Shown here: piece after piece, positions 6,024-26,600 of the stretch
How positions within the stretch are numbered: position 1 is the first letter of the stretch
How the letters are laid out: every line of letters begins with the position of its first letter
IMG/VR virus record: IMGVR_UViG_3300032238_000944
Coordinates: 18,926-82,925 of that record
Origin: a virus
Direction: 5' to 3' (one strand)
DNA length: 64,000 nt
Notes under the pieces: generated by a model
The model's input: only the letters and a program-made list of their open reading frames with translations
The model's database searches: none
What the model was told of the DNA's origin: nothing
Made by a program: the position numbers and the translations under genes

Positions 6024-6076
6024 CACTTTACAAACTGTCCACTCAACCTCCCAGGGTCTCTGGGAGGTTTTATAAT
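6024..6076 (+). promoter_or_regulatory. Accessory-region promoter module 1 (box + -10 TATAAT)
   Basis: Box CACTTTACAAACTGTCCAC at 6024-6042; -10 TATAAT at 6071-6076 followed by AGC; box-to--10 distance 47. A terminator hairpin occupies the spacer. First member of the 12-copy family and left edge of the accessory region. Confidence 0.65.
6046..6074 (+). terminator. Intrinsic terminator at the end of the fibre cluster
   Basis: Perfect 9-bp stem (ACCTCCCAG at 6046-6054, CTGGGAGGT at 6060-6068, 5-nt loop) followed by TTTTAT. It sits between the upstream box and the -10 of the promoter module at 6024-6076. Confidence 0.85.
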
Positions 6077-6098
6077 AGCTTCGTGAACTCAGTTTCCT

Positions 6099-6206
6099 AT
6101 GCCTCTGACTGCCACTGAAAAGTTAATTTTTATAGCATCATTCGTCAATTTTCTTCACTGGGGCGCAAAAGTCACGGAATCTGTACTGAATCATGCTATT
6201 TCTTGA
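6099..6206 (+). CDS. Possible small protein, 35 aa
   Basis: ATG 6099 to TGA 6206, sequence MPLTATEKLIFIASFVNFL then HWGAKVTESVLNHAIS. It is the first ORF after the -10 at 6071, about 16 nt from the expected start site, and overlaps the metallopeptidase start by 14 nt. It has a hydrophobic middle. It may be a real peptide or a leader; no clear ribosome site is visible. Confidence 0.35.
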   Translation: MPLTATEKLIFIASFVNFLHWGAKVTESVLNHAIS

Positions 6207-6612
6207 AATTACTGGTTATAACTGCTCTAAAAGGCGCTGTGAGAGCATTGTAGAGTGGTTCATAGGGAAATACCTTCCCAACCATAAATTGGACGTTGTA
6301 GTGAACCACAGAGGTCTTCTGAGGGAAGGTGTATATGGTTGGTGTACCGTACTAGATTGTGATCATCGTCCAAGGGCTTTTGAAATTGAAATGCATAATC
6401 GTCTGAATGTAGAAGATTATGCTAAGACTTTGTTTCATGAGCTTTGGCATGTGTATCAACATGTACATGGAGATCTTCGTGATAAGTATCAGAAACGTCT
6501 TTGGAAAGGTGTTGATTGTTCTGAGTTGGATTATGATGATCAACCATGGGAACAAGAAGCAAACTCAATGGAATCTCAACTGTACCTGATGTACTTGACA
6601 GAAACCTCATAA
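6193..6612 (+). CDS. Zinc metallopeptidase-like protein with HExxH
   Basis: 139 residues. Contains LFHELWHVYQH, with H82-E83-x-x-H86 as the zincin motif, and a downstream EQEANSMESQLY segment (E122 region) that fits the third zinc ligand of an IrrE/SprT-like peptidase. The length suits a single minimal catalytic domain. A small early phage protease could cleave a host regulator, but the target is unknown. It leads the accessory region behind promoter module 1. Confidence 0.65.
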   Translation: MLFLEITGYNCSKRRCESIVEWFIGKYLPNHKLDVVVNHRGLLREGVYGWCTVLDCDHRPRAFEIEMHNRLNVEDYAKTLFHELWHVYQHVHGDLRDKYQKRLWKGVDCSELDYDDQPWEQEANSMESQLYLMYLTETS

Positions 6613-6644
6613 GTAATTAGAATTGCTTTGTCCGGGTTGATGAG

Positions 6645-7157
6645 ATGGCTATAAGTACTTTAGAGAGACACAAATATAATGGCAATGAGATCATCAAGAC
6701 TCGTACATTAACATACGAGCCTTACAGATATTGTGAATATAACATGGCACTGGTGATGGGTTTAATAAGACGCAAACTCACACCAGATTTGCTATCTACA
6801 AGATATCGGGAAGAAAACAAAACAAATCCAACATATGGACATTGCTATCACTCTACACAGGCATTGTTCTATCTGATGGATACTGATAAGTTACAACCAA
6901 TGAGTGGTATTGATTACCGTGGTGAAACTCATTGGTGGTTACAAGATGGAGATAACATTTATGATCTTACTGCGGAGCAGTATCTTTCCGTAGGAAAGTT
7001 GCCACCATATTCTGTAGGTAAGAAAAGTAAATGGTATGGTTGGAAAGGTCGTCCACATCAGAGATCATTGGATCTCATTGTGAGAGTTCTTGGCAATCGG
7101 GTGACAGACACTGTGACAGTTGCCGAAGTGGATGGGGCCTTGACACCTTTCTTTTGA
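6645..7157 (+). CDS. Putative papain-like/transglutaminase-like protein
   Basis: 170 residues. Spacing suggests a catalytic triad: GHCYHSTQALFYLM (C67), GETHWWLQDG (H96), NIYDLTAEQY (D107), an order seen in papain-fold peptidases and transglutaminases. No family was confirmed. It follows the HExxH protein by 32 nt, so the region opens with two candidate proteolytic or amide-acting proteins. Promoter module 2 overlaps its last 40 nt. Confidence 0.5.
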   Translation: MAISTLERHKYNGNEIIKTRTLTYEPYRYCEYNMALVMGLIRRKLTPDLLSTRYREENKTNPTYGHCYHSTQALFYLMDTDKLQPMSGIDYRGETHWWLQDGDNIYDLTAEQYLSVGKLPPYSVGKKSKWYGWKGRPHQRSLDLIVRVLGNRVTDTVTVAEVDGALTPFF

Positions 7158-7169
7158 TCCGTGTATAAT
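7117..7169 (+). promoter_or_regulatory. Accessory-region promoter module 2 (box, TTGACA, TATAAT)
   Basis: Box CAGTTGCCGAAGTGGATGG at 7117; TTGACA at 7140-7145; 18-nt spacer; TATAAT at 7164-7169 followed by AGCCA. The only family member with a consensus -35. It drives the gene at 7240 with a leader of about 64 nt. Confidence 0.8.
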
Positions 7170-7239
7170 AGCCAGGTAAGCAACGGACGAGAACTTAGTT
7201 CTGCCTTGATTACACACTGTAGTTTACTTAGTTTAACTT

Positions 7240-8412
7240 ATGACAGTTCAAATCCCTTTTATGCCTAGCGAAACTCAACTTGTTTGGGATCGTGTGGCAC
7301 AAACTTGCAACAATCCTTTGGGATTGACCGAAGAGATTCTTCAACAATCTCTTGAAGTTTGTCCCGCTCCTGAATATCAAGGAGCAGAGTATATTGGTCG
7401 ATATCTGGTTCCTCGTTCTTTTGTTCGCTATGATCAAGAAGAACAACCCCGTGATAAAAGTAATGATGCTGATCACGTTAATAATCTAGTCAATAATTTT
7501 GAGACGATTGGTTATCGTCTGGATGCACAACCTCCCATCAGTTGTTTTGATACAAATGATGTAGCATCTACCAAACTCAAAGCACAATCGGGTTATAACC
7601 GAAATGAAGCTTTGGATCGGATTGGTCAAGAACTTTATATCTTCGATGTTTATAAGTTTGAGAGTAGGTTTTGGGAAATTGTTGCTCGCAACCAGTCAAA
7701 TCACCACTCCAATCCTCAACTTAGTCAGTCTATTCAAGACTACATCAAAGAAGTTTGCAATGCTGTGGAAAATGAAATCATTCCTGGTGATGCAGATGCT
7801 ATTTCTGATTTTGTAGATCTGATTGCTACAGATAAAACTGCTAAAGCTCGTAAAAAAATTAAAGTTACTTGCTTTAACAACTGTCAGGTATTTCCTAACT
7901 TCCGTACCTACAATTCTGTTGGTGCTGGTAAAAATACTTTGAATGGATTCATTAAAGAAAATGGATTTGTAAAACAAGGTGTTGAAGGTCGTACTGATGA
8001 AGAGTTGAAAGCACAAGGTTATATTACCTATTGTGCTGGCAATGGTGACAACAAAAGCAGTTGGATGCGAGCACTCTATCACGGAACTCGTTTGGGTCTT
8101 CCCGTGTGGATCTTTGGTTATGCAGCAAATCGTGTAGATAACCTAGAACAGTTCCGTGCAGAATACATCAATGATTTCAATGAATTGAAACAAGTGATGC
8201 TTGAGTTTGCTTTCTCGATTGCTGATGGTGGAGAGCAATCTTCGATTGATGAAGATGCTTTTTGTGTCAAACTCGCTGGATTTTTGCCTCAGTATGTGAA
8301 ACCCAATCCTCAAGATAGGGGTCGTCCTACTGAAAATACATTGGTTGATGTATATGGCAATTCTATTCGGTTTGATCCTGATGGAGATTGTCTGACACTT
8401 TCCCAACCCTGA
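7240..8412 (+). CDS. ParB/sulfiredoxin-fold-like protein, 390 aa
   Basis: The N-terminal third has a ParB-like arrangement: YLVPRSFVRYDQ, then PPISCFDTNDV and the SGYNRNEAL segment, comparable to the GxHRxxA box of ParB/Srx nucleotide-binding folds. The rest (YNSVGAGKNTLNGFIKENGF, CAGNGDNKSSWMRALYHG) is unfamiliar and rich in Asn and aromatics. Similar phage proteins may bind or cut DNA; that is inference. It has its own strong promoter and is followed, after a terminator, by an SF2 helicase gene. Codon use is less AT-rich than in the oxygenase genes. Confidence 0.5.
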   Translation: MTVQIPFMPSETQLVWDRVAQTCNNPLGLTEEILQQSLEVCPAPEYQGAEYIGRYLVPRSFVRYDQEEQPRDKSNDADHVNNLVNNFETIGYRLDAQPPISCFDTNDVASTKLKAQSGYNRNEALDRIGQELYIFDVYKFESRFWEIVARNQSNHHSNPQLSQSIQDYIKEVCNAVENEIIPGDADAISDFVDLIATDKTAKARKKIKVTCFNNCQVFPNFRTYNSVGAGKNTLNGFIKENGFVKQGVEGRTDEELKAQGYITYCAGNGDNKSSWMRALYHGTRLGLPVWIFGYAANRVDNLEQFRAEYINDFNELKQVMLEFAFSIADGGEQSSIDEDAFCVKLAGFLPQYVKPNPQDRGRPTENTLVDVYGNSIRFDPDGDCLTLSQP

Positions 8413-8414
8413 TC

Positions 8415-8467
8415 CAATTTGTGAACTGTCACACGGGGTCCACACGGACCCCTTTTTGCTGTATAAT
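8415..8467 (+). promoter_or_regulatory. Accessory-region promoter module 3
   Basis: Box CAATTTGTGAACTGTCACA at 8415; TATAAT at 8462-8467 followed by GGCCA; distance 47. The -35 position (8438) has GTCCAC, no -35 match. Serves the helicase gene. Confidence 0.7.
8435..8457 (+). terminator. Intrinsic terminator after the ParB-like gene
   Basis: Perfect 7-bp stem GGGGTCC/GGACCCC with ACAC loop, followed by TTTTT. It lies in the spacer of promoter module 3. Confidence 0.85.
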
Positions 8468-8488
8468 GGCCATATCGAAACGAAAGCA

Positions 8489-9712
8489 ATGGAACTTCGC
8501 CCCCATCAACAACGTGCCCTAGATGCTCTCGTAAAGCATGTTATTGGGCAGGTGATCATCCCGACTGGCGGAGGTAAGACCAATGTTGCTATTTTTGATG
8601 CAATCCGTGAGTTTCAGTCTGATGCTCCTAAAACCATCGTAGTGGTTGCCCCGCGCATCCTTCTGGCAGAGCAGTTGTCTAGTGAGTTTCTTGAGTTTAT
8701 CACAAATGTTGCAGTATTGCACGTTCATAGTGGCGAAACTCATCACTTCAACACCACTAAACCTGCTGAGATCTACAACTGGTCTCGTCGTGCATACAAA
8801 CATCAACTGATCTTCACTACCTATAACTCACTCAAGCAACTTGTCACTGCTGGTATTCATGTTGATACCATCTATTTTGATGAGGCACATAATTCTGTGC
8901 AACGTCATTTCTATCCTGCCACTCAACATTTCAGTCAACATGCTGACCGCTGTTACTTTTTTACTGCTACTCCAAAGCATTCTCTTGCTGCTAGTAAACC
9001 TGGAATGAATGATACCCGAGTGTATGGCCAGGTGATTTGCAATGTACCTGCTCCCGAACTTGTAGATGGTGGTTATATTGTACCACCTAAAGTTGTGGTC
9101 AAACAACTACCGATGCTTGGCAAACATGCTCAGGTTGCTGATCGTGACAGCGAGAATCTGTTGGATACCATTGATGAACAAGGTGTCTCTAAGGTTCTCA
9201 TCTGTGCCAAAGCTGTCAAGCAGATTCTCAATCTGGTTGCAGAATCTGACTTCTGCCTGCAACTCCAACAGCGTGGATATTCCTATATGTACATCAGTGC
9301 AAAGACTGGTGGTGTGATTGATGGTCAGAAAGTCAATCGTGAGCAATTCTTTGACACTCTCACTGCATGGGGTAAGGATAACAATAAGAAGTTTGTTGTT
9401 CTACATCACTCCATTCTTTCTGAGGGTATCAATGTCAGTGGACTTGAGGCAGTGATTTTTATGCGCTCCATGGATTACATTGGTATCAGTCAGACTATTG
9501 GCCGTGTGATCCGTTTGCATCATGATGATGCTGCTGGACTGCGCTCTGGTCGTATTGCTCCTGGTGCTGTGCAAGACTATACTAAATCTTTTGGTCTTGT
9601 GTGCATTCCTGTGTTCAATAAGGTTGGCATCAGTACCGCGCAGAAAGTACAGTCGGTTGTTGATACCATCTTTGTTCAAGGTGAACCTGCAATCTCTACC
9701 GTAAGAAGATAA
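8489..9712 (+). CDS. Superfamily 2 DEAD/DEAH-type helicase
   Basis: 407 residues from ATG 8489; an upstream TTG would place the start before the transcription start of module 3, so it is rejected. Motifs in order: Q-like RPHQQRAL, Walker A PTGGGKT (P25-T31), motif Ia VVAPRILL, DEAH (D131-H134), TATP, then the C-terminal domain with ILSEGINV and QTIGRVIR (Q335-R342). It resembles phage SF2 helicases such as T4 UvsW but is shorter. Expected to be an ATP-dependent DNA or RNA remodelling enzyme in replication, recombination or defence escape. Confidence 0.85.
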   Translation: MELRPHQQRALDALVKHVIGQVIIPTGGGKTNVAIFDAIREFQSDAPKTIVVVAPRILLAEQLSSEFLEFITNVAVLHVHSGETHHFNTTKPAEIYNWSRRAYKHQLIFTTYNSLKQLVTAGIHVDTIYFDEAHNSVQRHFYPATQHFSQHADRCYFFTATPKHSLAASKPGMNDTRVYGQVICNVPAPELVDGGYIVPPKVVVKQLPMLGKHAQVADRDSENLLDTIDEQGVSKVLICAKAVKQILNLVAESDFCLQLQQRGYSYMYISAKTGGVIDGQKVNREQFFDTLTAWGKDNNKKFVVLHHSILSEGINVSGLEAVIFMRSMDYIGISQTIGRVIRLHHDDAAGLRSGRIAPGAVQDYTKSFGLVCIPVFNKVGISTAQKVQSVVDTIFVQGEPAISTVRR

Positions 9713-9715
9713 CAT

Positions 9716-10156
9716 ATGGAAGTCAAATTCACGCAAAATCATTTTAAAAAGTGTAAAGAAGTAACTTGGGATGATATAGTTGAAAAAATTGATAATGAAT
9801 TTTTTCACCAAACTCATAAAATTATTTGCCCTTCAGATCGTGCTCCAACAATCATTCTTCATAATGATTACTATCCACTATCAATTAAATCTGCATATAA
9901 TGAAGTTGAAACCGAAACTGGTATAAAAGATATGCATATCTATACTTCATTGGGTAGAAATGCTTCAACATTTGGAAGACACTGTGACACAATGGATGTT
10001 TTGATTGTTCAATCTAAAGGAAAAATTGATTATGAATTTGATTGTGGTACAATTGTAAGGATGAGTCCAGGGGATTCTCTTCACATTCCCAAAGGAGTTT
10101 ATCACAATCCAATTGTATCCGAACCTAGAATTACATTGAGTTTCTCTTGGCAATAA
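9716..10156 (+). CDS. Cupin / JmjC-like metal-binding protein
   Basis: 146 residues. Cupin core with GRHCDTMDVLIVQSKGK (H89, D91) and the second motif MSPGDSLHIPKGVYHNP (H130), which supply a 2-His-1-Asp metal site as in JmjC-type or cupin_8 oxygenases. It could be another 2OG-dependent hydroxylase or a simple metal-binding cupin. The DNA is clearly more AT-rich than the helicase gene 4 nt upstream and the gene downstream. Confidence 0.65.
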   Translation: MEVKFTQNHFKKCKEVTWDDIVEKIDNEFFHQTHKIICPSDRAPTIILHNDYYPLSIKSAYNEVETETGIKDMHIYTSLGRNASTFGRHCDTMDVLIVQSKGKIDYEFDCGTIVRMSPGDSLHIPKGVYHNPIVSEPRITLSFSWQ

Positions 10157-10159
10157 ATT

Positions 10160-10699: not shown

Positions 10700-10869
10700 G
10701 AGAAGGATTCATCACGGCAGACGGTTATGCGGCTGTCCCCTGGGGCAAAAAAAACCTGATTATCCTGTATAATGGCCATCAGATAGAGACGGTAAGCACA
10801 CCGCTCCAAGCACAAAAGTTCATTAAAAACCACCGCACTAATCCATCCAAAGGAACAGTATTCCTATGA
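10696..10869 (+). CDS. Small protein, 57 aa, carrying promoter module 4 in its coding sequence
   Basis: ATG 10696 overlaps the previous stop (ATGA), and its own TGA overlaps the ATG at 10866 (ATGA). Sequence begins MREGFITADGYAAVPWGKKN and continues IILYNGHQIETVST. The LYNGH codons are the -10/discriminator of promoter module 4. A short basic beta-hairpin-like protein; function unknown. Double overlap supports real translation. Confidence 0.6.
   Translation: MREGFITADGYAAVPWGKKNLIILYNGHQIETVSTPLQAQKFIKNHRTNPSKGTVFL
10722..10773 (+). promoter_or_regulatory. Accessory-region promoter module 4 (inside a gene)
   Basis: Box CGGTTATGCGGCTGTCCCC at 10722; TATAAT at 10768-10773 followed by GGCCA; distance 46. 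Wholly within the 57-codon gene; would serve the exported-protein gene at 10866. Confidence 0.55.
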
Positions 10870-11273
10870 AACTCCCAGCACTACTATCTCTTGCATTGTT
10901 TGCTCCAATGCCTGTGTTTGCACAACAGACAAACATCTATCAGGTATGTACAACCTATCAAGAGAACTATGCTCCTGGATATTATGATCAGTATGGTAAC
11001 TATCGTCAAGGAAATGTAAGCACTCAGGCTTATAATACTCAGTGTGGTACTGGTACATACTATCGCCCCAATACTGGTGGTACATATTATCCAACACCTG
11101 TTGTAGCTCCAGTTGCACAACCATATCGTAGGTCATGTGCTGCTGCTCCTATTGGCGCTATTCTTGGTGGTTTTGGTGCATACAAAGCAACCAGTAGTGT
11201 ACCCAATCGTTGGTGGTCTGTTCCTCTAGGTGTTGTAACTGGTGGAATTGTTGGAAATGCTCTCTGTAACTAA
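10866..11273 (+). CDS. Exported glycine-zipper protein
   Basis: 135 residues. Clear signal peptide (MKLPALLSLALFAPMPVFA, likely cut before QQ), then a Tyr/Gln/Asn-rich segment with two Cys, then PIGAILGGFGAYKA and VPLGVVTGGIVGNALC, a glycine-zipper-like membrane domain with further Cys residues. Resembles small periplasmic or outer-membrane glycine-zipper proteins. It probably acts in the host envelope, for example in superinfection exclusion, but this is inference. Confidence 0.6.
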   Translation: MKLPALLSLALFAPMPVFAQQTNIYQVCTTYQENYAPGYYDQYGNYRQGNVSTQAYNTQCGTGTYYRPNTGGTYYPTPVVAPVAQPYRRSCAAAPIGAILGGFGAYKATSSVPNRWWSVPLGVVTGGIVGNALCN

Positions 11274-11274
11274 A

Positions 11275-13215: not shown

Positions 13216-13375
13216 ACAAGATGATGGACTGAAGGTAACAGAGAATGGTGATGGATCATTCACTTTAGAGTGGGATGAAAAAGATCCACGCTGGTCAATG
13301 CTGAATGGGTTGACACAAGAAGAAGTTACTGCTATACTAACCGAAGGTCTTCAAAAAATGCTTGATAATGACTGA
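13208..13375 (+). CDS. Small acidic protein, 55 aa
   Basis: Start at ATG 13208, overlapping the zinc-ribbon gene by 8 nt. Contains the beta-type TENGDGSFTLEWDEKDPRWS and a C-terminal helix LTQEEVTAILTEGLQKML. I recognise this build from cyanophages, but no function is known. Confidence 0.55.
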   Translation: MTEQDDGLKVTENGDGSFTLEWDEKDPRWSMLNGLTQEEVTAILTEGLQKMLDND

Positions 13376-13895
13376 CTACAAAAAATACTCATTGGGCCAA
13401 GTTGAGAACTTTCTGTATGATGCAATGAGTACAGATGCAACACCAAAAGAAATCTATGATGTCATTAAAGGTGTTGTTGAAGATAACTATAATACCTATA
13501 AGGTACAGACAGAAAAAGCGAGTGAACTTCTTGCTCTGCTGAATGGCCATCGTCCTGTAGATTTTGACTTTTGTGATAAAGATGACCCATCACCTGAATG
13601 TAAAAAGTCTTGGAATGACTTCTGGGAAGAAAATTACTGTTCAGAAGAACACCAACAGTACACAGAAGAAGAACTAAATGCAATGTGTGATGCTGCTGAA
13701 GCAAAAGATAAAGTAGTTAAGTGGTCTCTTCCTGTTGAAGCAGATCCAAGTGGTGAATACTTTGTAACTTTCCCTGATGATTTGTTAGAAGCAGCAGATC
13801 TTAAAGAGGGTGATCAAGTTGAATGGATTGCTCAAGATGGTGGATCTTATCTTCTTAAAAAAATAACTAACCCACTTGGAATGGAAAAATGTTGA
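13368..13895 (+). CDS. AbrB-like domain protein, 175 aa
   Basis: Start at ATG 13368, overlapping the previous stop by 8 nt. Residues 1-50 are helical (YSLGQVENFLYDAMSTDATP, EIYDVI). Residues about 120-165 (YFVTFPDDLLEAADLKEGDQ, VEWIAQDGGSYLLKK) match a SpoVT/AbrB swapped-hairpin domain, a DNA-binding fold of transition regulators and antitoxins. It may be an early transcription regulator, though the target is unknown. Confidence 0.6.
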   Translation: MTDYKKYSLGQVENFLYDAMSTDATPKEIYDVIKGVVEDNYNTYKVQTEKASELLALLNGHRPVDFDFCDKDDPSPECKKSWNDFWEENYCSEEHQQYTEEELNAMCDAAEAKDKVVKWSLPVEADPSGEYFVTFPDDLLEAADLKEGDQVEWIAQDGGSYLLKKITNPLGMEKC

Positions 13896-14729: not shown

Positions 14730-14903
14730 ATGACACTTGCAAAAACTGGTTCGGCAGACCTTACAACCGAAGAATGGAATGAATTAGTTGCACTTAAAGA
14801 AGCAATTAACTATTCTCCACAAACTGTAAGTCCAGAGAAAATGGAAAAGTTTACTGAGCTTATGGTAAGATCCTTAGAAGGTAAAGGAAATAGGCCAGTT
14901 TAA
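14730..14903 (+). CDS. Small conserved-type protein, 57 aa
   Basis: Start at ATG 14730 (TTG 14721 is the alternative). Helical: LTTEEWNELVALKEAINYSP then EKMEKFTELMVRSLEGKG, ending RPV. I have seen this form in cyanophages without a known function. The stop codon lies inside the box of promoter module 5. Confidence 0.55.
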   Translation: MTLAKTGSADLTTEEWNELVALKEAINYSPQTVSPEKMEKFTELMVRSLEGKGNRPV

Positions 14904-14949
14904 GAAGTGGCACATGGCAGTTCCACCTGCTCCCATTTTGCTGTATATT
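14896..14949 (+). promoter_or_regulatory. Accessory-region promoter module 5
   Basis: Box CAGTTTAAGAAGTGGCACA at 14896; TATATT at 14944-14949 followed by GGCCA; distance 48. Serves the gene at 14973. The box covers the RPV-stop codons of the preceding gene. Confidence 0.7.
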
Positions 14950-14972: not shown

Positions 14973-15380
14973 ATGGCAACCCGCTCTCGCATTGGTATCG
15001 AACTTCGTGACGGTTCTATTCTGTCTGCCTATCATCATTGGGATGGCTATCCTTCCTGGTTGGGTCGCATTCTGAAGACTCACTACAATAGCAAAGAACT
15101 CGCTGCCGAACTGATTGATGGTGGCGATATGAGTTCTGCATGGACTAATGCAGGTTTCAAAAATGAAACTGTTGCTCAAGGTGCTCTTTATTATTCTTCC
15201 CGTGGTGAAGATTGCCCTCCTCGCCTTGATAAGAACTCAGGTGAGTTCTTGACTAAAGATGCTGAAGAATATGCATATCTTTATACTGAATCTGAAGGTT
15301 GGTTGTGCTATGATACTTGCGATTGGCATGAAACTTATCTTGAAAGTCAAGAAATCCCCTCTGTTGCTCTTGCTGTATGA
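14973..15380 (+). CDS. Conserved phage protein, 135 aa (MATRSRIGIE type)
   Basis: Opens MATRSRIGIELRDGSI and SAYHHWDGYPSWLGRILK, a distinctive signature that recurs in small proteins of phages and bacteria. Later segments are Glu/Tyr-rich (DAEEYAYLYTESEGWLCYDT). Biochemical role not known. First gene of a run of tightly overlapping genes reaching about 17.85 kb, so module 5 may drive a long operon. Confidence 0.6.
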   Translation: MATRSRIGIELRDGSILSAYHHWDGYPSWLGRILKTHYNSKELAAELIDGGDMSSAWTNAGFKNETVAQGALYYSSRGEDCPPRLDKNSGEFLTKDAEEYAYLYTESEGWLCYDTCDWHETYLESQEIPSVALAV

Positions 15381-17654: not shown

Positions 17655-17854
17655 TGGCAAACTTCAATGTAGAACAACAAAAAATAATCTATAATGCTGT
17701 TCGTTATTATCAAATCAATCGCGTTACATTAGACAGCAAATTATATAAAGACTGCGATGCAATTCTAAATGAATTATTTCCAACTGTAATACAGCATGTG
17801 CCAGTTGATCAAGAGGCCCCTGCAAACACAACAAAACCTGGAACTACTGTATAG
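17654..17854 (+). CDS. Small protein, 66 aa
   Basis: ATG 17654 overlaps the FeoA-like stop (TAATG). Helical N-terminus (MANFNVEQQKIIYNAVRYYQ) and a Pro/Thr-rich tail. The C-terminal codons hold the box of promoter module 6. Function unknown. Confidence 0.5.
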   Translation: MANFNVEQQKIIYNAVRYYQINRVTLDSKLYKDCDAILNELFPTVIQHVPVDQEAPANTTKPGTTV

Positions 17855-17855
17855 T
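17802..17855 (+). promoter_or_regulatory. Accessory-region promoter module 6 (weaker match)
   Basis: Box CAGTTGATCAAGAGGCCCC at 17802; TATAGT at 17850-17855 followed by GGCTA; distance 48. ATG of the next gene lies 12 nt after the first base of the -10, that is, at the expected transcription start. Confidence 0.5.
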
Positions 17856-19839: not shown

Positions 19840-20466
19840 ATGGAATACTACACTTACGCTTATTTGCGTGAAAATAGAACACCTTACTACATTGGTAAAG
19901 GTAAAGGTAATAGAGTTTACCAAAAAAATAGAAAATCAATAAACCCACCAAAAGATAAATCTAGAATAATATTTCTAAAACGAAATTTAACTGAAAAGGA
20001 AGCATTTAAACATGAAGTTTATATGATTTCTGTGTTTGGTAGAAAAGATTTGGGTACAGGTATTCTTTATAATCTTACAAATGGTGGAGAGGGAACTTCT
20101 GGAGCAAATAATTCGGGAAAAAGAAACGGTTTCTATCAAAAATCTCATACGGAAGAAACAAAACTAAAAATATCTAAAGCAAAAATTGGAACCAAGTTTC
20201 CTGAAGAATTAAAACCATTAGTATCCAAGAGAACTAAAAAAATGTGGGAAGATGGTGGTGTGTTTTCTACACCAAAGTTTAGACAAAAACTATCACAATC
20301 TTTATGCAAAAAGCAATATCAACTTACTAATGAAGAAGGGGAGGTATATTATACTAATAACATAGTGCTATTTTCCAAAGAACACAATTTAGATTACAGT
20401 TCAATGTACAAAGTTGTTAAAGGAAAACTAAAGTATTATAAAGGATGGGTAGGAAAAATCATATGA
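19840..20466 (+). CDS. GIY-YIG homing endonuclease (free-standing)
   Basis: 208 residues. N-terminal GIY-YIG nuclease domain: YYTYAYLRENRTPYYIGKGK, GNRVYQKN, then EAFKHEVYMISVFGR (catalytic Glu region) and LYNLTNGGEG. Middle part has SGKRNGFYQKSHTEETKLKI, a NUMOD-type DNA-binding repeat (SEEHKKK-like), and the C-terminus (FSKEHNLDYSSMYKVVKGKL) fits a helix-turn-helix NUMOD1-like module. Seg-family layout. Inserted between two genes with similar MKxFxQFxE starts, with its own late promoter. No intron is evident. Confidence 0.85.
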   Translation: MEYYTYAYLRENRTPYYIGKGKGNRVYQKNRKSINPPKDKSRIIFLKRNLTEKEAFKHEVYMISVFGRKDLGTGILYNLTNGGEGTSGANNSGKRNGFYQKSHTEETKLKISKAKIGTKFPEELKPLVSKRTKKMWEDGGVFSTPKFRQKLSQSLCKKQYQLTNEEGEVYYTNNIVLFSKEHNLDYSSMYKVVKGKLKYYKGWVGKII

Positions 20467-20498: not shown

Positions 20499-20717
20499 AT
20501 GAAAACGTTTCAACAATTTCAAGAACAGTTGGAAAGAGGTAGATTAACTCCAGCAACACCTGCACAAACACAACAACAACGTGTTTCAAGTGTAAAGAGA
20601 GCAAGCATGATTGCTACAAAGATGCGTGGTCGTGCATCAGATGAATTAGATTCTCATCAATCCAACATGAGAACACTACTCAAAAAGTCTGGAGAAGATA
20701 TTAAAGGGGCCCACTAA
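20499..20717 (+). CDS. Putative head-internal protein with capsid-targeting-like N-terminus
   Basis: 72 residues. N-terminus MKTFQQFQEQLE is close to the T4 capsid targeting sequence. The remainder is basic, Gln/Thr/Ser-rich and helical (SVKRASMIATKMRGRASDEL). Sister of the gene at 19541, separated from it by the GIY-YIG gene. Late motif upstream. An injected or head-packaged role is inferred. Confidence 0.5.
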   Translation: MKTFQQFQEQLERGRLTPATPAQTQQQRVSSVKRASMIATKMRGRASDELDSHQSNMRTLLKKSGEDIKGAH

Positions 20718-20763
20718 TCAGGCTGTCCACTATTCTCCCCAAATGCCCTCAGAACCTGTATAT
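20712..20763 (+). promoter_or_regulatory. Accessory-region promoter module 7
   Basis: Box CACTAATCAGGCTGTCCAC at 20712; TATATT at 20758-20763 followed by GGCCA; distance 46. The -10 is framed by a perfect 10-bp inverted repeat, CCCTCAGAAC at 20745-20754 and GTTCTGAGGG at 20771-20780. Confidence 0.7.
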
Positions 20764-20787
20764 TGGCCATGTTCTGAGGGATTTCTA

Positions 20788-20922: not shown

Positions 20923-21047
20923 TGCCTGACACCTATTCGTTCTCTGGTGATGCTGTAACATTCCTGGGCCTGGTTGGAGTTATCTCCACGGCAATTATTA
21001 TGGTTACAGTGTATAAACGTTACTGGAACTCTCCCTACCGCAAATAA
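20922..21047 (+). CDS. Small membrane protein, 41 aa
   Basis: MPDTYSFSGDAVTFLGLVGV then ISTAIIMVTVYKRYW: one transmembrane helix with a short basic tail. TGATG overlap with the acidic protein gene. Function unknown. Confidence 0.5.
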   Translation: MPDTYSFSGDAVTFLGLVGVISTAIIMVTVYKRYWNSPYRK

Positions 21048-21049
21048 TC

Positions 21050-21358: not shown

Positions 21359-21537
21359 CAATGAATGTAACCGAACATAACATCAGTGATTGGGAGTTGA
21401 GTAATAGTGAAATTGAAGAGATCATTCGTCTCACTAAACTTGAGATGAAAAAGTATCCTGAAGATAAAGAAACTCAAATGTTCTATGGTATGATAGTTGG
21501 AAAGCTTATGATCATGAAGAATAATGAGGACACTTGA
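21355..21537 (+). CDS. Small helical protein, 60 aa
   Basis: ATGA overlap with the previous gene; a second ATG at 21361. Contains ISDWELSNSEIEEIIRLTKL. Its 3' end holds the box of promoter module 8. Function unknown. Confidence 0.45.
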   Translation: MTMNVTEHNISDWELSNSEIEEIIRLTKLEMKKYPEDKETQMFYGMIVGKLMIMKNNEDT

Positions 21538-21584
21538 AGAACTGTCACAAGGGCCCTTGCAAGAGGGTCTTTTTGCTGTATGAT
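21531..21584 (+). promoter_or_regulatory. Accessory-region promoter module 8
   Basis: Box CACTTGAAGAACTGTCACA at 21531; TATGAT at 21579-21584 followed by GGCCA; distance 48. ATG 21591 is 12 nt after the first base of the -10. Confidence 0.7.
21551..21574 (+). terminator. Intrinsic terminator
   Basis: GGCCCT at 21552-21557 pairs with AGGGTC at 21564-21569 (one G-T), 6-nt loop, then TTTTT. Lies between box and -10 of module 8. Confidence 0.7.
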
Positions 21585-21590
21585 GGCCAC

Positions 21591-22487
21591 ATGAAGAACA
21601 CACACCTTAACCATCCTGAAGATGAAGTTCTTAATGGCAAAGATGCTGCCAAAAATGTTATTAAGTTTTTGCGTGAACGTAACTCTACATTGAGTGTAAA
21701 ATACGATGGAAGTCCAGCTGTAGTTTGGGGCACTTGTCCTTTCACTGGTTGGTTCTTTGTAGGCACAAAAAGTGTCTTCAACAAGAAGAAAATCAAGATC
21801 AATTATTCTCACTATGATATTGAAGTAAATCATGGTGATGTACCAAAGGTTGCATCAATTCTTCATGTTTGCTTTGACAATCTTCCTCGCATCAAAGGTA
21901 TTGTCCAGGGTGATTTCATCGGTTTCGGTGGTAATGACTTCTACAAGCCTAACACGATTGAGTATAACTTCGGTCGTCTTGTGAATGAGAATGTAATCAT
22001 TGCTGCTCATACATCCTACAACAGTTCTACTCATCTCAAAGATGCAATTGCGTCATTCGGTGTCAATGAGGAACTGCAATCTCCCAATGTTAAGTTTCTG
22101 AATACCAATGCACAGTTTGCCTCCCGTCGTCGTAGAATTGATTTGCTTTGTAGTCTTGCAAGTGTGGCTATCAATTTTGTTAAGTTCCCTGATGCAAAAG
22201 AGGGACAAGAACTCAAGATAGCCATCAATCGTTGTATTCGTGAACAACGTGACATTGCAGAGTCTGGTATGAACAACAATCTCGCAATTCTCTACAAACT
22301 GATCATTGAGATCAAAGAATTGCTGATGGAAGGTATTGTATCTGATGAAAATGTTGAGTGTTACATTGGCAATGACAAATGTGATCATGAGGGTTATGTC
22401 ATGACCAATGAGTTTGGTACATTCAAATTTGTCAATCGTGAAGTCTTCAGTTATAATAACTTTGTGCGTCCTAAGAGTTGGTCATGA
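21591..22487 (+). CDS. Covalent nucleotidyltransferase (DNA/RNA ligase superfamily)-like protein
   Basis: 298 residues from ATG 21591, the first start compatible with module 8. Ligase-type motifs in order: I, SVKYDGSPAVVWG with K37-x-D39-G40; a GDFIGFGG strand; IV, DHEGYVM with E267-G; V, TFKFVNREVF with K279. In this superfamily the motif I Lys takes a nucleotide from ATP, GTP or NAD. No OB-fold or BRCT is visible, so it is likely a minimal or divergent RNA-ligase-like enzyme. Substrate and partner unknown; the message may be leaderless. Confidence 0.6.
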   Translation: MKNTHLNHPEDEVLNGKDAAKNVIKFLRERNSTLSVKYDGSPAVVWGTCPFTGWFFVGTKSVFNKKKIKINYSHYDIEVNHGDVPKVASILHVCFDNLPRIKGIVQGDFIGFGGNDFYKPNTIEYNFGRLVNENVIIAAHTSYNSSTHLKDAIASFGVNEELQSPNVKFLNTNAQFASRRRRIDLLCSLASVAINFVKFPDAKEGQELKIAINRCIREQRDIAESGMNNNLAILYKLIIEIKELLMEGIVSDENVECYIGNDKCDHEGYVMTNEFGTFKFVNREVFSYNNFVRPKSWS

Positions 22488-23041
22488 AATATAAAAATGT
22501 ATCTACAAGTGATGGAAAAGTTATTCACATTTATGATGAGGTTTTTTCTGAATTTGAAAAAAGTTTTCATGAAAAGTTTTGTTTTGAATCTAATTTTAGA
22601 TTAAGTTGGCAGTCATTTTTGTTGCCTTATTTTAGATGTAATCTTAGTGAAGAAGATGTAAAAAACTTTCGTTTTTTTGATAATGAAAACATCGTTAATA
22701 TAATTAAAAATCATGTGGGGGAAAATGTTAAAGTAATTGCAAGCTGGATTATTGTTACAACACCCTCTTTGATTCCTTACAATTTTCATCATGATGCCAC
22801 TGATGATGATAAAGATAATCAAAAAATCATTTTATATTATGTAAATAATGAATGGAATCGTAATTGGCACGGTCAAACATTATATGCAAATGACAATGGT
22901 GAATGTGAAATTGCAGTAGAATATAAACCGGGAAGAATTACTGTATATGATGCAAAAACTTGTCACGCTTCGGGTCCAATTACAAGTCCTACTTCTAAAC
23001 CAAAGTTTATTTTTGCGATGCACTTAGAATCTCAATCTTAA
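22484..23041 (+). CDS. 2OG-Fe(II) oxygenase-like protein
   Basis: 185 residues; ATG 22484 overlaps the previous stop (ATGA). Iron motif YNFHHDATDDD (H102 or H103 with D104), NRNWHGQTLYAND strand, then YKPGRITVYDAKTCHASGP (H161). The 2OG-binding Arg is replaced by a KPKFIFAMHLE segment, so cosubstrate binding may differ. Very AT-rich. Substrate unknown. Confidence 0.6.
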   Translation: MKYKNVSTSDGKVIHIYDEVFSEFEKSFHEKFCFESNFRLSWQSFLLPYFRCNLSEEDVKNFRFFDNENIVNIIKNHVGENVKVIASWIIVTTPSLIPYNFHHDATDDDKDNQKIILYYVNNEWNRNWHGQTLYANDNGECEIAVEYKPGRITVYDAKTCHASGPITSPTSKPKFIFAMHLESQS

Positions 23042-23072
23042 AATGGTAAATAGAAAATAAAGAGTATCACAA

Positions 23073-23366
23073 ATGGAAGAACAGATTGAGATTACAAATG
23101 GCATCAATCATCACACTTGTTCATCACTTGAGGAAGCATACATTCTAGGGCAGCATTATGCAACAGAATTGCAAGGGGAAATCACAATTTTCGTAAATGG
23201 TGCAAAAGTTGATACAATCGCACCACAAAATAGATCATCTGAATTGTTTGGAGAGATTCCACCTAATCTAGAAGAAATGATTGCTGATGGTTATAATCCT
23301 AACGCAAAAGATGGTGACGGTGATGGACTCTTACAGGATGGCACAAAATGGGAAAGGCCAGTTTGA
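23073..23366 (+). CDS. Protein with Ca2+-loop-like Asp/Gly tail, 97 aa
   Basis: Residues 1-70 mixed alpha/beta. The C-terminus NPNAKDGDGDGLLQDGTKWE resembles an EF-hand or dockerin calcium loop (DxDxDG...D), a recurring tail in cyanophage proteins. Ends ERPV, and like the gene at 14730 its RPV-stop codons fall in the box of a promoter module. Function unknown. Confidence 0.55.
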   Translation: MEEQIEITNGINHHTCSSLEEAYILGQHYATELQGEITIFVNGAKVDTIAPQNRSSELFGEIPPNLEEMIADGYNPNAKDGDGDGLLQDGTKWERPV

Positions 23367-23411
23367 GGGCTGTCCACCATTTCACCCACTGGCAGCCAAA
23401 TGATGTATATT
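23359..23411 (+). promoter_or_regulatory. Accessory-region promoter module 9
   Basis: Box CAGTTTGAGGGCTGTCCAC at 23359; TATATT at 23406-23411 followed by GGCCA; distance 47. Near-identical over about 64 nt to module 10. Confidence 0.75.
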
Positions 23412-23433
23412 GGCCATGTTGAGAGATGAATCA
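23370..23433 (+). repeat. 64-nt direct repeat, copy A
   Basis: Matches 24174-24237 with about six differences. Includes the right half of the box, the spacer, -10, discriminator and the GAGATGAATCAC start region. Confidence 0.8.
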
Positions 23434-23665
23434 CATGGATCGCAAGTTTCACACCGTCAGCATTGAAGATCGTGAGATGTTTGCTTATAATGCTGCCTAC
23501 AACAAATCGAAGGCAGAGATTGCACGAATCAACGCACATCCTGAACAGCGTATGAAATATTGTTTTGAGTTTATGACACATGCTGATGACGAAATGCGTG
23601 TGAAATGCTACAACGCAATCGCAAAGTATTCCGCACAACTTGACTACTCCGAAGCACACTTCTGA
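23426..23665 (+). CDS. Hypothetical protein, 79 aa
   Basis: Start at ATG 23426 (GAGAG just before) or 23435. Starts MNHMDRKFHTVSIEDREMFA, helical with MKYCFEFMTHADDEMRVKCY. Function unknown; behind module 9. Confidence 0.5.
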   Translation: MNHMDRKFHTVSIEDREMFAYNAAYNKSKAEIARINAHPEQRMKYCFEFMTHADDEMRVKCYNAIAKYSAQLDYSEAHF

Positions 23666-23686
23666 ATCCTTCACTAACACAAATCC

Positions 23687-23962
23687 ATGCTCGATTACCT
23701 CTGCATTTGTTTCGGTCATTCTGACATTCCGAACCACTGGTATAACATGAAGAGTCGTCATTCGACTGCTCGTGCTGCTGAAAGATTCGGTCTTGATAAT
23801 ATGTGTGTGGCAGGACAATTTGGTTTCGTTGTGATTGAAGAGACCAAAGATACCTGGAAGGTGTTAGATGATCGTTCGATGTTGCCTCCTTCTGGTTATA
23901 GTATTGGTTGCAACAATACCAACCTTTATGTTCAACCTGCTCCCCAACTTGTTCTTGTTTGA
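23687..23962 (+). CDS. Hypothetical protein, 91 aa
   Basis: MLDYLCICFGHSDIPNHWYN; beta-rich middle (QFGFVVIEETKDTWKVLDD) and hydrophobic end. Cys-rich N-terminus. Not recognised. Confidence 0.5.
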   Translation: MLDYLCICFGHSDIPNHWYNMKSRHSTARAAERFGLDNMCVAGQFGFVVIEETKDTWKVLDDRSMLPPSGYSIGCNNTNLYVQPAPQLVLV

Positions 23963-23970
23963 TGATGATG

Positions 23971-24102
23971 ATGACTGATGATGAACTGTTTCGTAATCTC
24001 CTTGCCACATTGATTTGTGAGGATAAGTTAGAAGAATGGGAAACAAAAGCCGCTGAGTTAGAGTTACCATTGGACTACTACATTCAGGAGTTTGTAGGAT
24101 GA
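23971..24102 (+). CDS. Small acidic helical protein, 43 aa
   Basis: Four consecutive in-frame ATGs lie at 23962-23973; the last gives MTDDELFRNLLATLICEDKL then EEWETKAAELELPLDYYIQ. A cyanophage-type small protein of unknown function. Confidence 0.55.
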   Translation: MTDDELFRNLLATLICEDKLEEWETKAAELELPLDYYIQEFVG

Positions 24103-24233
24103 AAGCTACGGTCTTTGCATTAGTCTGTCTTGGAATTGGTCAGGCAATTCTAATCAGTGTGCCAGTTCCCGAAGTGTCCACCATTTCACCCACTGGGTCT
24201 CAAATGATGTATATTGGCCATGTTAAGAGATGA
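24099..24233 (+). CDS. Small membrane/secreted peptide, 44 aa, spanning promoter module 10
   Basis: ATG 24099 overlaps the previous stop; TGA at 24231 overlaps the next ATG at 24230. MKATVFALVCLGIGQAILIS looks like a signal or membrane helix, then VPVPEVSTISPTGSQMMYIG. The whole of promoter module 10 is coding here. Confidence 0.5.
   Translation: MKATVFALVCLGIGQAILISVPVPEVSTISPTGSQMMYIGHVKR
24163..24215 (+). promoter_or_regulatory. Accessory-region promoter module 10 (inside a gene)
   Basis: Box CAGTTCCCGAAGTGTCCAC at 24163; TATATT at 24210-24215 followed by GGCCA; distance 47. Best match to the box consensus. Confidence 0.75.
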
Positions 24234-24237
24234 ATCA
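24174..24237 (+). repeat. 64-nt direct repeat, copy B
   Basis: Pairs with 23370-23433; the differing positions cluster in a 4-nt patch before CAAATGATG. Confidence 0.8.
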
Positions 24238-24406
24238 CCAAATGCGAATTGATGTCAAATGCCATGCTGCTCCCTGGGAGAATACCACCACTGATGTGGA
24301 TCGTGCCTATGATCTCGCATATGATTTGAGTGAAGAATACCAATGCGATGTGGATCTTCGCTATAATGAAACTGGCATCATTTTCACCACTGTTTCTAAC
24401 TATTGA
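24230..24406 (+). CDS. Hypothetical protein, 58 aa
   Basis: Start at ATG 24230 or 24242. MNHQMRIDVKCHAAPWENTT then DVDRAYDLAYDLSEEYQCDV; alpha/beta, about 80% of the length of the protein behind module 9 and sharing the MNH start through the repeated promoter. Function unknown. Confidence 0.5.
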   Translation: MNHQMRIDVKCHAAPWENTTTDVDRAYDLAYDLSEEYQCDVDLRYNETGIIFTTVSNY

Positions 24407-24409
24407 ATC

Positions 24410-24610
24410 ATGAAAAACATGACTTTTGTTGAAGGATTGATCGCATCTGGTTATGTATTTGATGATGAGAACTATGATGGTTGTTATGTAAAACAAGATG
24501 CAGATGGTTTCATTCATTGTTATCAAGAAGGAGAAGATGAAGGTGAATGGAATTATGTGAAAATGACTGATGAGTTTGATATTATCACTGAGAAAACATT
24601 TGCACTCTGA
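24410..24610 (+). CDS. Small acidic protein, 66 aa
   Basis: MKNMTFVEGLIASGYVFDDE then NYDGCYVKQDADGFIHCYQE; beta-type, acidic. TGATG overlap with the next gene. Function unknown. Confidence 0.5.
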   Translation: MKNMTFVEGLIASGYVFDDENYDGCYVKQDADGFIHCYQEGEDEGEWNYVKMTDEFDIITEKTFAL

Positions 24611-24873
24611 TGATCTATTCAAATCTGTCAAAGATCAAACCAAAACTGAGAACAACTGGTCGCGTCTCTGGTAACTTTGGACGCAACAAAGTTCAAGCAG
24701 GTTCTTCACTTAATGAGATTGGAATGAGTACCAAAGAGACAATCAAATGTACCACACAAGATGAATATCTGAAGCGTCTACATGATGCCTTTGATCATAC
24801 CACAGATTCAAAACTGCGTCAGTTCATTTATACTGAGATTCGCAAGATTCATGTTCAACGCGGGACATGGTGA
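24610..24873 (+). CDS. Basic hypothetical protein, 87 aa
   Basis: Lys/Arg-rich N-terminus (IKPKLRTTGRVSGNFGRNKV) and helical C-terminus (LKRLHDAFDHTTDSKLRQF, IYTEIRKIHVQRG). It could bind nucleic acid on charge grounds only. Unrecognised. Confidence 0.45.
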   Translation: MIYSNLSKIKPKLRTTGRVSGNFGRNKVQAGSSLNEIGMSTKETIKCTTQDEYLKRLHDAFDHTTDSKLRQFIYTEIRKIHVQRGTW

Positions 24874-24928
24874 CAGTCTGACAAGTGGCACAAGGCCCCT
24901 TGTGGACAGCCCCCATCTCATGTATTAT
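24874..24928 (+). promoter_or_regulatory. Accessory-region promoter module 11
   Basis: Box CAGTCTGACAAGTGGCACA at 24874; TATTAT at 24923-24928 followed by GGCCA; distance 49. Two inverted repeats: CACAAGG/CCTTGTG (24889-24904) in the spacer, and CTCATGT/ACATGAG (24917-24939) framing the -10. Confidence 0.7.
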
Positions 24929-24934
24929 GGCCAC

Positions 24935-24994
24935 ATGAGGGAAAGGGATTGCCCCAAACCTCACACTTCACTCGCTAATCACTCTCATGCGTAA
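24935..24994 (+). CDS. Possible leader peptide, 19 aa
   Basis: ATG lies 12 nt after the first base of the -10. Encodes MRERDCPKPHTSLANHSHA and its stop overlaps the next gene's start (24987). If translated it would be a leaderless upstream peptide coupled to that gene. Confidence 0.25.
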   Translation: MRERDCPKPHTSLANHSHA

Positions 24995-25310
24995 GATTGA
25001 ACAACTGATGAATGATGCAATTTCCAACAAGAAAGATTGGAAACTTGCTAACACTTGTGTCGAGTATTTCAGTGGTCATGATATTTCTCGTGTGTATCTG
25101 CATGACAATTTGATTGCTGAGATTGGTCCTACTTATGTTCAACTGTTCGATGGTGGATGGCAAACCAACACCACCAAATCGCGTCTCAATGCTATTCTTT
25201 CTGCACACGGATTGCCTGGAGAAGGTGTATTCCAAAAGAACTTTAATTGGTTCTTTCAGTCTCATGACTATGGCACGATTCCTTTCTTTTCAGGTATGCG
25301 AATTGCCTGA
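24987..25310 (+). CDS. Conserved phage-type protein, 107 aa
   Basis: Segments RKIEQLMNDAISNKKDWKLA, SRVYLHDNLIA, FDGGWQTNTTKSRLNAIL and EGVFQKNFNWFF form a recognisable small-protein family in phages, with NTTKSRLN as the hallmark. Biochemical function not known to me. First full gene after module 11. Confidence 0.6.
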   Translation: MRKIEQLMNDAISNKKDWKLANTCVEYFSGHDISRVYLHDNLIAEIGPTYVQLFDGGWQTNTTKSRLNAILSAHGLPGEGVFQKNFNWFFQSHDYGTIPFFSGMRIA

Positions 25311-25348
25311 TTCTTTGTTCACCTTTTTCACAAACTTCGATTGATAAA

Positions 25349-25522
25349 ATGACTGACAACAAACTTGAAATGTTGAGTGCTCGTGAACAACTTATGAGCG
25401 ATATTGATTGTATCATCGAAAGTTTCTTTTATGATACCTGGGGCGATGAATACAACGAAGAACAACAAGAATTGGTGAAAACCTTGTGTGATGCTGTCTG
25501 TGCAAACTTTCCTTCTAAATGA
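25349..25522 (+). CDS. Small acidic protein, 57 aa
   Basis: ATG 25349: MTDNKLEMLSAREQLMSDID then CIIESFFYDTWGDEYNEEQQ. Helical, acidic. Its TGA overlaps the next ATG at 25519. Unknown. Confidence 0.5.
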   Translation: MTDNKLEMLSAREQLMSDIDCIIESFFYDTWGDEYNEEQQELVKTLCDAVCANFPSK

Positions 25523-25686
25523 CAATGACTAACACCAAAGATCTTTATTATACTGATGCCAAAGATGGCAAAGAACGTATGATTCAAGTTCCCGAAAATC
25601 TTGCATGGATTATGGTTCAGTCAATGCACATTGCTGGTGTTGATGCTTATATTGATCTCACTCCTACTGATACCATTGCTGCCTAA
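25519..25686 (+). CDS. Small protein, 55 aa
   Basis: MTMTNTKDLYYTDAKDGKER then MIQVPENLAWIMVQSMHIAG; ATGA overlap with the previous gene. Unknown. Confidence 0.5.
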   Translation: MTMTNTKDLYYTDAKDGKERMIQVPENLAWIMVQSMHIAGVDAYIDLTPTDTIAA

Positions 25687-25690
25687 TCTC

Positions 25691-25924
25691 ATGATCATTC
25701 CAATTCTAAACAAACGTGGAAACACTCCCAAACCTTATCAAATCTCAAAGGAGAAAGTAGATCATAAAGAAGGAAGATTTATCGTCTGGAAGTATCACAA
25801 AAAAGTCATTGTGAATCATCAAGTGATGTACAAGTATTCACCGATTCGATATGATCAAGAACTCGCAAGGTTTAAGACAATGAAAGATGCAAAAGAGTTT
25901 GGACGTTATATCGTAGGACTATGA
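25691..25924 (+). CDS. Basic hypothetical protein, 77 aa
   Basis: Start at ATG 25691. Lys-rich beta-type sequence (KVDHKEGRFIVWKYHKKVIV, MYKYSPIRYDQELARF), ending in a helix. Overlaps the next ATG (ATGA). It may bind nucleic acid; not recognised. Confidence 0.5.
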   Translation: MIIPILNKRGNTPKPYQISKEKVDHKEGRFIVWKYHKKVIVNHQVMYKYSPIRYDQELARFKTMKDAKEFGRYIVGL

Positions 25925-26091
25925 GTAAGGTTATCGCATTGCATCACACAGAGGTTATACTTCTGAGAACAGATCAGGTTCATTTTATCAAGAATCTGTT
26001 ACGAGACTATGTGATAAGAACTGATAACAAAAGAAAATGTAATGATGCCATTCACATTCTTACTACTATTAGTAAGCAGTTAAATGATTAA
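25921..26091 (+). CDS. Small basic protein, 56 aa
   Basis: MSKVIALHHTEVILLRTDQV then HFIKNLLRDYVIRTDNKRK. Basic, helical. Last gene before the largest gene-free gap of the accessory region. Unknown. Confidence 0.5.
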   Translation: MSKVIALHHTEVILLRTDQVHFIKNLLRDYVIRTDNKRKCNDAIHILTTISKQLND

Positions 26092-26125
26092 AAAAGCCTT
26101 TTTTTAATTAAGCTGAGTTTAAGAA

Positions 26126-26169
26126 GTTTTCCACAAGCTGTTGAAAATTATGTGTTAATTGTGGAAAAC
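26126..26169. repeat. Inverted pair of cyanobacterial-type DnaA boxes
   Basis: GTTTTCCACA at 26126-26135 and TGTGGAAAAC at 26160-26169, a perfect 10-bp inverted repeat. TTTTCCACA is the DnaA-box form typical of cyanobacteria. The intervening 24 nt is AT-rich, and box centres are 33-34 bp apart (about three helical turns). Confidence 0.55.
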
Positions 26170-26302
26170 ATTGATACTTTAAAGCCCTTGGTTGTTGTGC
26201 ATTAGGACCCTTATAAACCCTTCTAGTCCTTGTGATCTTTGCGTGCAAGCTATCACAACCGCACAAAAATGTCAAGGCCCCTGATAAATACTCCCATGCC
26301 CC

Positions 26303-26332
26303 TTGACATAACCGCACAGGGGGGATTATACT
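26303..26332 (+). promoter_or_regulatory. Sigma70-type promoter TTGACA-N18-TATACT
   Basis: Consensus -35 at 26303-26308 and -10 at 26327-26332, followed by GGCCA as in the box family, but no upstream box is present. Drives the gene at 26364. Confidence 0.8.
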
Positions 26333-26363
26333 GGCCACAGTACAACAAACCCTCCGAGGTCTT

Positions 26364-26531
26364 ATGTCAGTTTCCTACCTTCAAGCTCAGAAAAAGCATG
26401 TGCGTGTGACACTGGATCTTTCAGTTTACAGTGACTTCGATGCCCGACAGATTGACTATGCAAAACTATTCGGATTGGATGGAGATGAGTCAGTCTCAGT
26501 ATACGTGGAGGACATGGAGATTGACTGGTAG
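26364..26531 (+). CDS. Small acidic protein, 55 aa
   Basis: MSVSYLQAQKKHVRVTLDLS then VYSDFDARQIDYAKLFGLDG, ending EDMEIDW. GAGGT ribosome site upstream. A cyanophage-type small protein of unknown role, directly after the strongest host-type promoter of the window. Confidence 0.55.
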   Translation: MSVSYLQAQKKHVRVTLDLSVYSDFDARQIDYAKLFGLDGDESVSVYVEDMEIDW

Positions 26532-26546
26532 CTTATAACGATGTGA

Positions 26547-26600
26547 CAGTTGTAGAAGTGTCACAGTAAATGAGCACAACCCCCTCAGATGATGTATATT
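26547..26600 (+). promoter_or_regulatory. Accessory-region promoter module 12
   Basis: Box CAGTTGTAGAAGTGTCACA at 26547; TATATT at 26595-26600 followed by AGCCA; distance 48. Serves the gene at 26624. Confidence 0.75.

Follow-up and report, generated by a model that had tools for sequence, protein, structure and literature searches.

The 64,000-nt stretch of DNA analysed here (the window; positions 18,926-82,925 of the 82,925-base IMG/VR record IMGVR_UViG_3300032238_000944) carries twelve copies of a promoter module in which a 24-bp inverted repeat (dyad) lies at a nearly constant distance upstream of a -10 hexamer. From its sequence architecture, the module is probably an early promoter class that is read by the host sigma-A RNA polymerase and relies on a dimeric activator, bound to the dyad, in place of a -35 element. 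The window comes from a marine virus of cyanobacteria: its baseplate, neck and tail proteins are of T4 type, with their nearest relatives in Synechococcus and Prochlorococcus myoviruses (gp6 has about 60% identity to S-SM2 and P-TIM68), and they mark it as part of a T4-like cyanophage. The twelve modules sit in a block of small genes upstream of gp25-gp6 (Table 1), and the module clusters of P-SSM2, S-SKS1, DSL-LC02 and S-SCSM1 occupy the equivalent place in those phages.

A sequence-only reading of the window had placed twelve 19-bp boxes in this block, each with a -10 hexamer beginning 46-49 bp after the box start, and had described the two half-boxes as 11 bp apart and alike in all copies. 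All twelve boxes were found where it had placed them, with the -10 at this distance in 12 of 12. The halves are somewhat less uniform than described: columns 1, 4 and 14 show no variation, column 12 holds either C or G, columns 2, 13 and 16 have one exception each and column 5 has two. Because the minus strand also scored high at the same positions, each box was recognised as the larger part of a 24-bp dyad with the consensus TGTGMCASTT-N4-AASTGKCACA; the 11-bp spacing is thus correct for half of the pattern, the actual symmetry being that of the longer inverted repeat. The dyad and the -10 are separated by 27-30 bp in the twelve copies. If the -10 is taken to occupy -12 to -7, the most frequent spacer, 29 bp, puts the dyad at about -65 to -42, with its centre at -53.5.

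A weight matrix combining the box, the spacing and the -10 was applied to both strands of the whole record. The twelve modules scored 30.6-43.7 and the next-best place in the record 16.4, while the top score in 20 first-order Markov shuffles was 21.4. These twelve sites alone stood out, far above the shuffles, and the earlier remark that the virion blocks hold no copies was borne out: the module was absent from the tail, baseplate and neck genes, as well as from the 18.9 kb to the left of the window. Since the matrix was trained on the twelve sites, their own scores are inflated; the tests with the dyad as bait, with isolate genomes and with orthologous genes that follow are free of that weakness. 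The symmetric dyad matrix alone returned precisely the twelve sites at a score of at least 12, against an average of 1.5 in shuffles. Chance or low complexity as the origin of the pattern was ruled out by the shuffles and by mirrored-pattern controls.

With the module matrix, 104 modules were detected across ten T4-like cyanophages. S-PM2 had 20 (5 of them with a terminator), S-SM2 had 3 and P-TIM68 had 1; at a stricter threshold Syn9 had 8, several of which lie in its small-gene block at 43-53 kb, with the -10 28-29 bp downstream. In the ten phages an ATG commonly follows 20-30 nt past the -10. A dyad pattern allowing up to 2 mismatches identified 14 sites in S-PM2, 13 in P-SSM2, 10 in S-SKS1, 7 in P-HM2 (control 3), 5 each in DSL-LC02 and S-SCSM1, 4 in Syn9, and 1 each in S-SM2 and S-TIM5; it identified none in P-TIM68, Ma-LMM01, T4, the T7-like phages P-SSP7 and Syn5 or the siphovirus S-CBS2. 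HTVC008M, a T4-like Pelagibacter phage, yielded no module by the matrix and no dyad by the pattern. A strict dyad with no promoter in the pattern was then used as bait in IMG/VR, where it matched at least 119 stretches. Among the matches listed, TATNNT in the 367 oriented dyad flanks occurred 62 times at a spacer of 29, 33 times at 30 and 10 times at 28, other offsets giving a mean of 1.8; the full promoter geometry was present at 89 of the 119 dyad loci, and 109 of the 119 encode cyanophage-like proteins when compared with a cyanophage genome set. Judged by these counts, the module is a widespread control element in use by most related cyanophages. Directly after the -10, most modules of the phage studied here carry GGCCA(T), and in many other phages (C)ATA or GGTA stands some 6 bases after it, so that the start-site region is conserved and yet phage-dependent in sequence. 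The exact pattern including the downstream GGCYA had no IMG/VR match, which indicates that the GGCYA part is specific to this phage.

Several boxes start on or close to the stop codon of the gene before them, and terminators lie close by; the dyad could on this account form an RNA hairpin where the transcript of that gene ends, serving in processing or termination, with the promoter merely adjoining it. The arms of the dyad, compared over the 104 modules, speak against such a stem. Both are conserved without covariation: the complementary fraction equals the expectation for independence at nearly every position, and arm position 8 pairs below chance (0.34, expected 0.47). Moreover, the actual terminator hairpins sit downstream, in the spacer, and the dyad-to--10 spacing is fixed with or without a terminator. 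We regard the hairpin explanation as barely credible. Conservation of the arms without covariation points instead to two half-sites for a protein, and on this evidence the dyad is bound as DNA, by a dimeric protein.

We next consider the spacer. In 31 of 104 modules, three of them in the window, its 27-31 bp accommodate an intrinsic terminator (a hairpin followed by a U-run), compared with 3.45 in shuffled spacers. The spacer would require no sequence of its own, which would explain why it so often houses the terminator of the preceding gene. The observation that only one of the twelve copies has a consensus -35 was correct (TTGACA at 7140), and the class as a whole lacks the TTGACA-like hexamer 15-19 bp before the -10 that marks a canonical sigma70 promoter. 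In addition to the modules, the phage has two box-less promoters: one at 26303-26337 in the window, and a second at contig position 8126, outside the window, which has the same -10 and GGCCA and no dyad. A perfect TTGACA lies 17-18 bp upstream in 2/2 of these box-less GGCCA promoters versus 1/12 of the boxed ones; small as these numbers are, the pattern suggests that the box and the -35 are alternatives. Going by the counts, the -35 is an occasional extra that stands outside the definition of the class.

Dyads are typical of repressor operators, and a TG immediately precedes the -10 in 31 of 104 copies, where it could allow activity independent of a -35; the dyad might accordingly be an operator that shuts off or delays genes whose promoters fire on an extended -10 alone. 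We consider this improbable. The site, at about -65 to -42, lies off the core promoter and keeps a constant distance to the -10, neither of which a repressor would require, and in most copies both a -35 and a TG immediately in front of the -10 are missing, which means that the polymerase must get help. Taken together, the constant distance, an upstream site off the core promoter, the usual lack of a -35 and the tolerance of a terminator in the spacer fit a dimeric activator that touches the sigma-A polymerase. Activation and early timing are properties that we infer for the modules from these features.

In the mechanism that we propose, host sigma-A RNA polymerase would read the module promoters, and a dimeric DNA-binding protein on the 24-bp dyad would stand in for the -35 that is missing from most copies. 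A fixed gap of 27-31 bp would keep this protein at a constant distance and on a constant helical face for contact with the polymerase, probably through the C-terminal domain of the alpha subunit (alpha-CTD) and/or sigma region 4. A compact terminator-promoter unit of about 60 bp would thereby head each short early operon. Three points weigh against an activator that replaces the -35. The centre at -53.5 differs from the textbook activator positions of -41.5 and -61.5. Hexamers within 1 mismatch of TTGACA are over-represented in the spacers (15/104 vs 1.65 shuffled; perfect in 2/104), so the box does not always substitute for a -35. Finally, an early activator made by the phage would have to be delivered with the virion or expressed from a box-less promoter; if the dyad binder is phage-made, the box-less promoters could fire before the boxed ones.

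The module also accompanies particular genes. It was found upstream of peptidase orthologs in 7 phages, of CobS in 6 and of DUF7717 in 4, and, counting the phage studied here, upstream of helicase orthologs in 5 and of DUF6267 in 4. The earlier description of the module as confined to the accessory region is therefore true of this contig and does not extend to relatives, where it also precedes conserved peptidase, cobS, helicase and DUF6267 genes. When orthologs of module-led genes were inspected in other cyanophages, a module was also present in 120 of 311 comparisons, which are pairwise and hence not independent events, and in 0 of 19 for HTVC008M. Environmental orthologs of the gene at 14973 had a module upstream in 31 of 57 distinct regions and those of the gene at 24987 in 31 of 66, with both the mirrored-matrix and the within-gene controls at 0. 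These data bear on whether the module is mainly a recombination cassette, kept for gene shuffling over regulation, as might be proposed by analogy with the promoter-early stem-loops (PeSLs) of other T4-type phages. Its composite terminator-promoter layout in 31/104 copies would suit that role, as would its clustering in the variable, gene-rich region upstream of gp25-gp6 and in the S-PM2 region that includes the ORFanage of that phage. However, what is conserved is a set of spaced protein-recognition bases and not long identical stretches, and the module remains with the same orthologous genes. A mainly recombinational role is thus very unlikely, and the recombination and regulatory roles are compatible.

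We then turned to the protein that binds the dyad. A host transcription factor site borrowed by the phage, as some cyanophages borrow Pho boxes, would suit early genes, which the host machinery reads from the outset. Such borrowing has a precedent, in that use of PhoB sites by S-PM2d was shown by gel shift (PMC10976474), and the perfect dyad is over-represented in some other cyanobacteria, filamentous ones among them (about 14 of 44 GTDB matches). In 300 Cyanobium-family genomes, which were taken as picocyanobacteria on the basis of a Cyanobium anchor, only 12 dyad sites with up to 1 mismatch were detected, in 9 genomes (mirrored control 1), and a looser pattern gave 10 sites vs 2 in the control in 41 genomes; neither scan revealed a dyad regulon conserved in picocyanobacterial hosts. 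The T7-like and siphoviral cyanophages, which infect the same kind of hosts, also lack the dyad. We therefore hold a borrowed host site to be unlikely, if less so than repression. The absence of a host regulon, of dyads in T7-like cyanophages and of dyads in a T4-like phage of another host suggests a factor tied to T4-like cyanophages, and we infer that the binder is a phage-specific factor and not a host regulator. It may also be a host protein that has no other such dyad sites, and filamentous or other cyanobacteria are a possible source of the phage factor. In two cyanobacterial loci (L016, second copy, and L020) a dyad lies directly upstream of a TTGAC(A/T) hexamer.

The sequence-only reading had offered the AbrB-like protein (13362-13895) as a local candidate for the binder. 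This is unlikely, as the AbrB/MazE part was not found in most module-rich phages: within the tested set it occurs only in this phage, with a weak match in Syn9. Gene co-occurrence identified 32 Syn9 open reading frames (ORFs) that are common to at least 6 module-rich phages and missing in HTVC008M, among which PHROG 385, annotated 'transcriptional regulator', is the only regulator-labelled family. All 202 records of this family come from cyanophages or marine phages, and it has no Pfam domain, which makes it a lead only. A split between module-rich and module-poor phages for a 66-aa ORF proved to be a gene-calling artefact, and the 55-aa product of the box-less promoter with its -10 at 26327 shows no recognisable DNA-binding feature. 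As a tentative extension, T4-like cyanophages could share a dimeric, phage-specific activator which, bound to its dyad centred at -53.5, substitutes for the -35 contact; this would free the spacer for a terminator and turn the early region into a chain of interchangeable 60-bp terminator-activator-promoter cassettes; we think this possible, with the balance somewhat against it.

Doron et al. in 2016 reportedly described, for cyanophages Syn9 and P-TIM40, a new type of element that controls early genes, and such elements are said to be abundant and conserved among T4-like cyanophages. Because Syn9 carries the module in its small-gene block, and both concern early genes of T4-like cyanophages, the module is very probably that element. 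The dyad symmetry, the independence of the arms, the terminator overlap and the host-genome scan are additions made here, which may or may not already be contained in that report. Class I and II activator promoters (CRP, NtcA, PhoB) likewise have a dimeric site at a fixed distance upstream of a sigma70 -10. The CRP site is TGTGA-N6-TCACA, and the NtcA site is GTA-N8-TAC at -41.5. The half-site sequence, 24-bp length and centre position of the module are unlike those of CRP, NtcA and PhoB sites; the cyanobacterial Pho box is a direct repeat (PMC10976474).

T4 middle promoters, which use a MotA box and AsiA-modified sigma70, resemble the module in having a protein-bound upstream box and a sigma70 -10 without a consensus -35. 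In contrast to the MotA box, which lies near -30 and is not a 24-bp dyad, the dyad of the module is centred at about -53.5 and ends 27-31 bp before the -10. The sequence gives good support to the proposal of a promoter class with an upstream protein-binding box, usually no consensus -35 and a layout that differs from that of T4 MotA promoters. The genes motA and asiA are absent from cyanophages (PMC2984593, PMC5780444); T4 Alt is missing from them as well, and a 2010 review called the control of early transcription in T4-like cyanophages unclear (PMC2984593). PeSLs, like those modules that hold a terminator, are short composite terminator-promoter units in variable regions. In the module, the terminator is placed after a protein-binding dyad and ahead of the -10, and only about 30% of copies have one; PeSLs were considered sparse in S-PM2 (PMC4503421), in which we counted the 20 modules given above. 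Few viruses of marine photosynthetic bacteria are as abundant as T4-like cyanophages. The portable description of the module (24-bp dyad, 27-31 bp, -10, ATG 20-30 nt on) makes early operons annotatable in any cyanophage contig, and the dyad provides an exact bait for isolating its binding protein. The module also sets T4-like cyanophages apart from a T4-like pelagiphage in which some of the module-led genes have orthologs.

Table 1 Promoter modules and associated features (window coordinates, except for the PHROG 385 copies, which are given by locus)
Feature	Position	Strand	Dyad	Spacer element	-10	Downstream gene and remarks
Module 1	6019-6076	+	6019-6042	Terminator hairpin ~6047-6067	TATAAT 6071-6076	ORF 6193-6612
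Module 2	7112-7169	+	7112-7135	TTGACA 7140-7145	TATAAT 7164-7169	ORF 7240-8412
Module 3	8410-8467	+	8410-8433	Terminator hairpin ~8435-8452, then TTTTT	TATAAT 8462-8467	Helicase ORF, ATG 8489
Module 4	10717-10773	+	10717-10740		TATAAT 10768-10773	ORF 10866-11273
Module 5	14891-14949	+	14891-14914		TATATT 14944-14949	ORF 14973-15380 (PHROG 1987)
Module 6	17797-17855	+	17797-17820		TATAGT 17850-17855	ATG 17862
Module 7	20707-20764	+	20707-20730		TATATT 20759-20764	ATG 20788; weakest symmetric dyad score, 14.2
Module 8	21526-21584	+	21526-21549	Terminator hairpin ~21552-21569, then TTTTT	TATGAT 21579-21584	DUF6267 gene, ATG 21591
Module 9	23354-23411	+	23354-23377		TATATT 23406-23411	ORF 23426-23665
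Module 10	24158-24215	+	24158-24181		TATATT 24210-24215	ATG 24230
Module 11	24869-24928	+	24869-24892		TATTAT 24923-24928	Kyano_Gp96 gene 24987-25310
Module 12	26542-26600	+	26542-26565		TATATT 26595-26600	ORF 26624-26911 (DUF7249); sole perfect dyad consensus match, TGTGACAGTTGTAGAAGTGTCACA
Box-less companion promoter	26303-26337	+		TTGACA 26303-26308, then 18 bp	TATACT 26327-26332, GGCCA	55-aa ORF 26364-26531
PHROG 385 candidate regulator copies	L011 25642-25872; L015 38134-38379

Additional dyads were seen outside the cyanophage set. The contig IMGVR_UViG_3300008113_001711, which has no detectable similarity to that set, holds a tandem array of at least 5 dyads, mostly 57-62 bp apart (locus 12-330) and mostly trailed by a TATTGACA-like stretch. 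The acidobacterial Pyrinomonadaceae metagenome-assembled genome SSF56 has 11 near-identical dyads (control 0), two of which, among those inspected, lie shortly upstream of ORFs; these perhaps belong to an unrelated regulator with the same half-site. No Rfam families and no tRNAs were found in the window. Outside it, a leucine-type tRNA-like sequence, recognised by eye, lies at contig positions ~8560-8650, downstream of the box-less promoter at 8126. Within the early block, the ORF at window positions 19840-20466 contains a NUMOD3 motif, which is associated with homing endonucleases.

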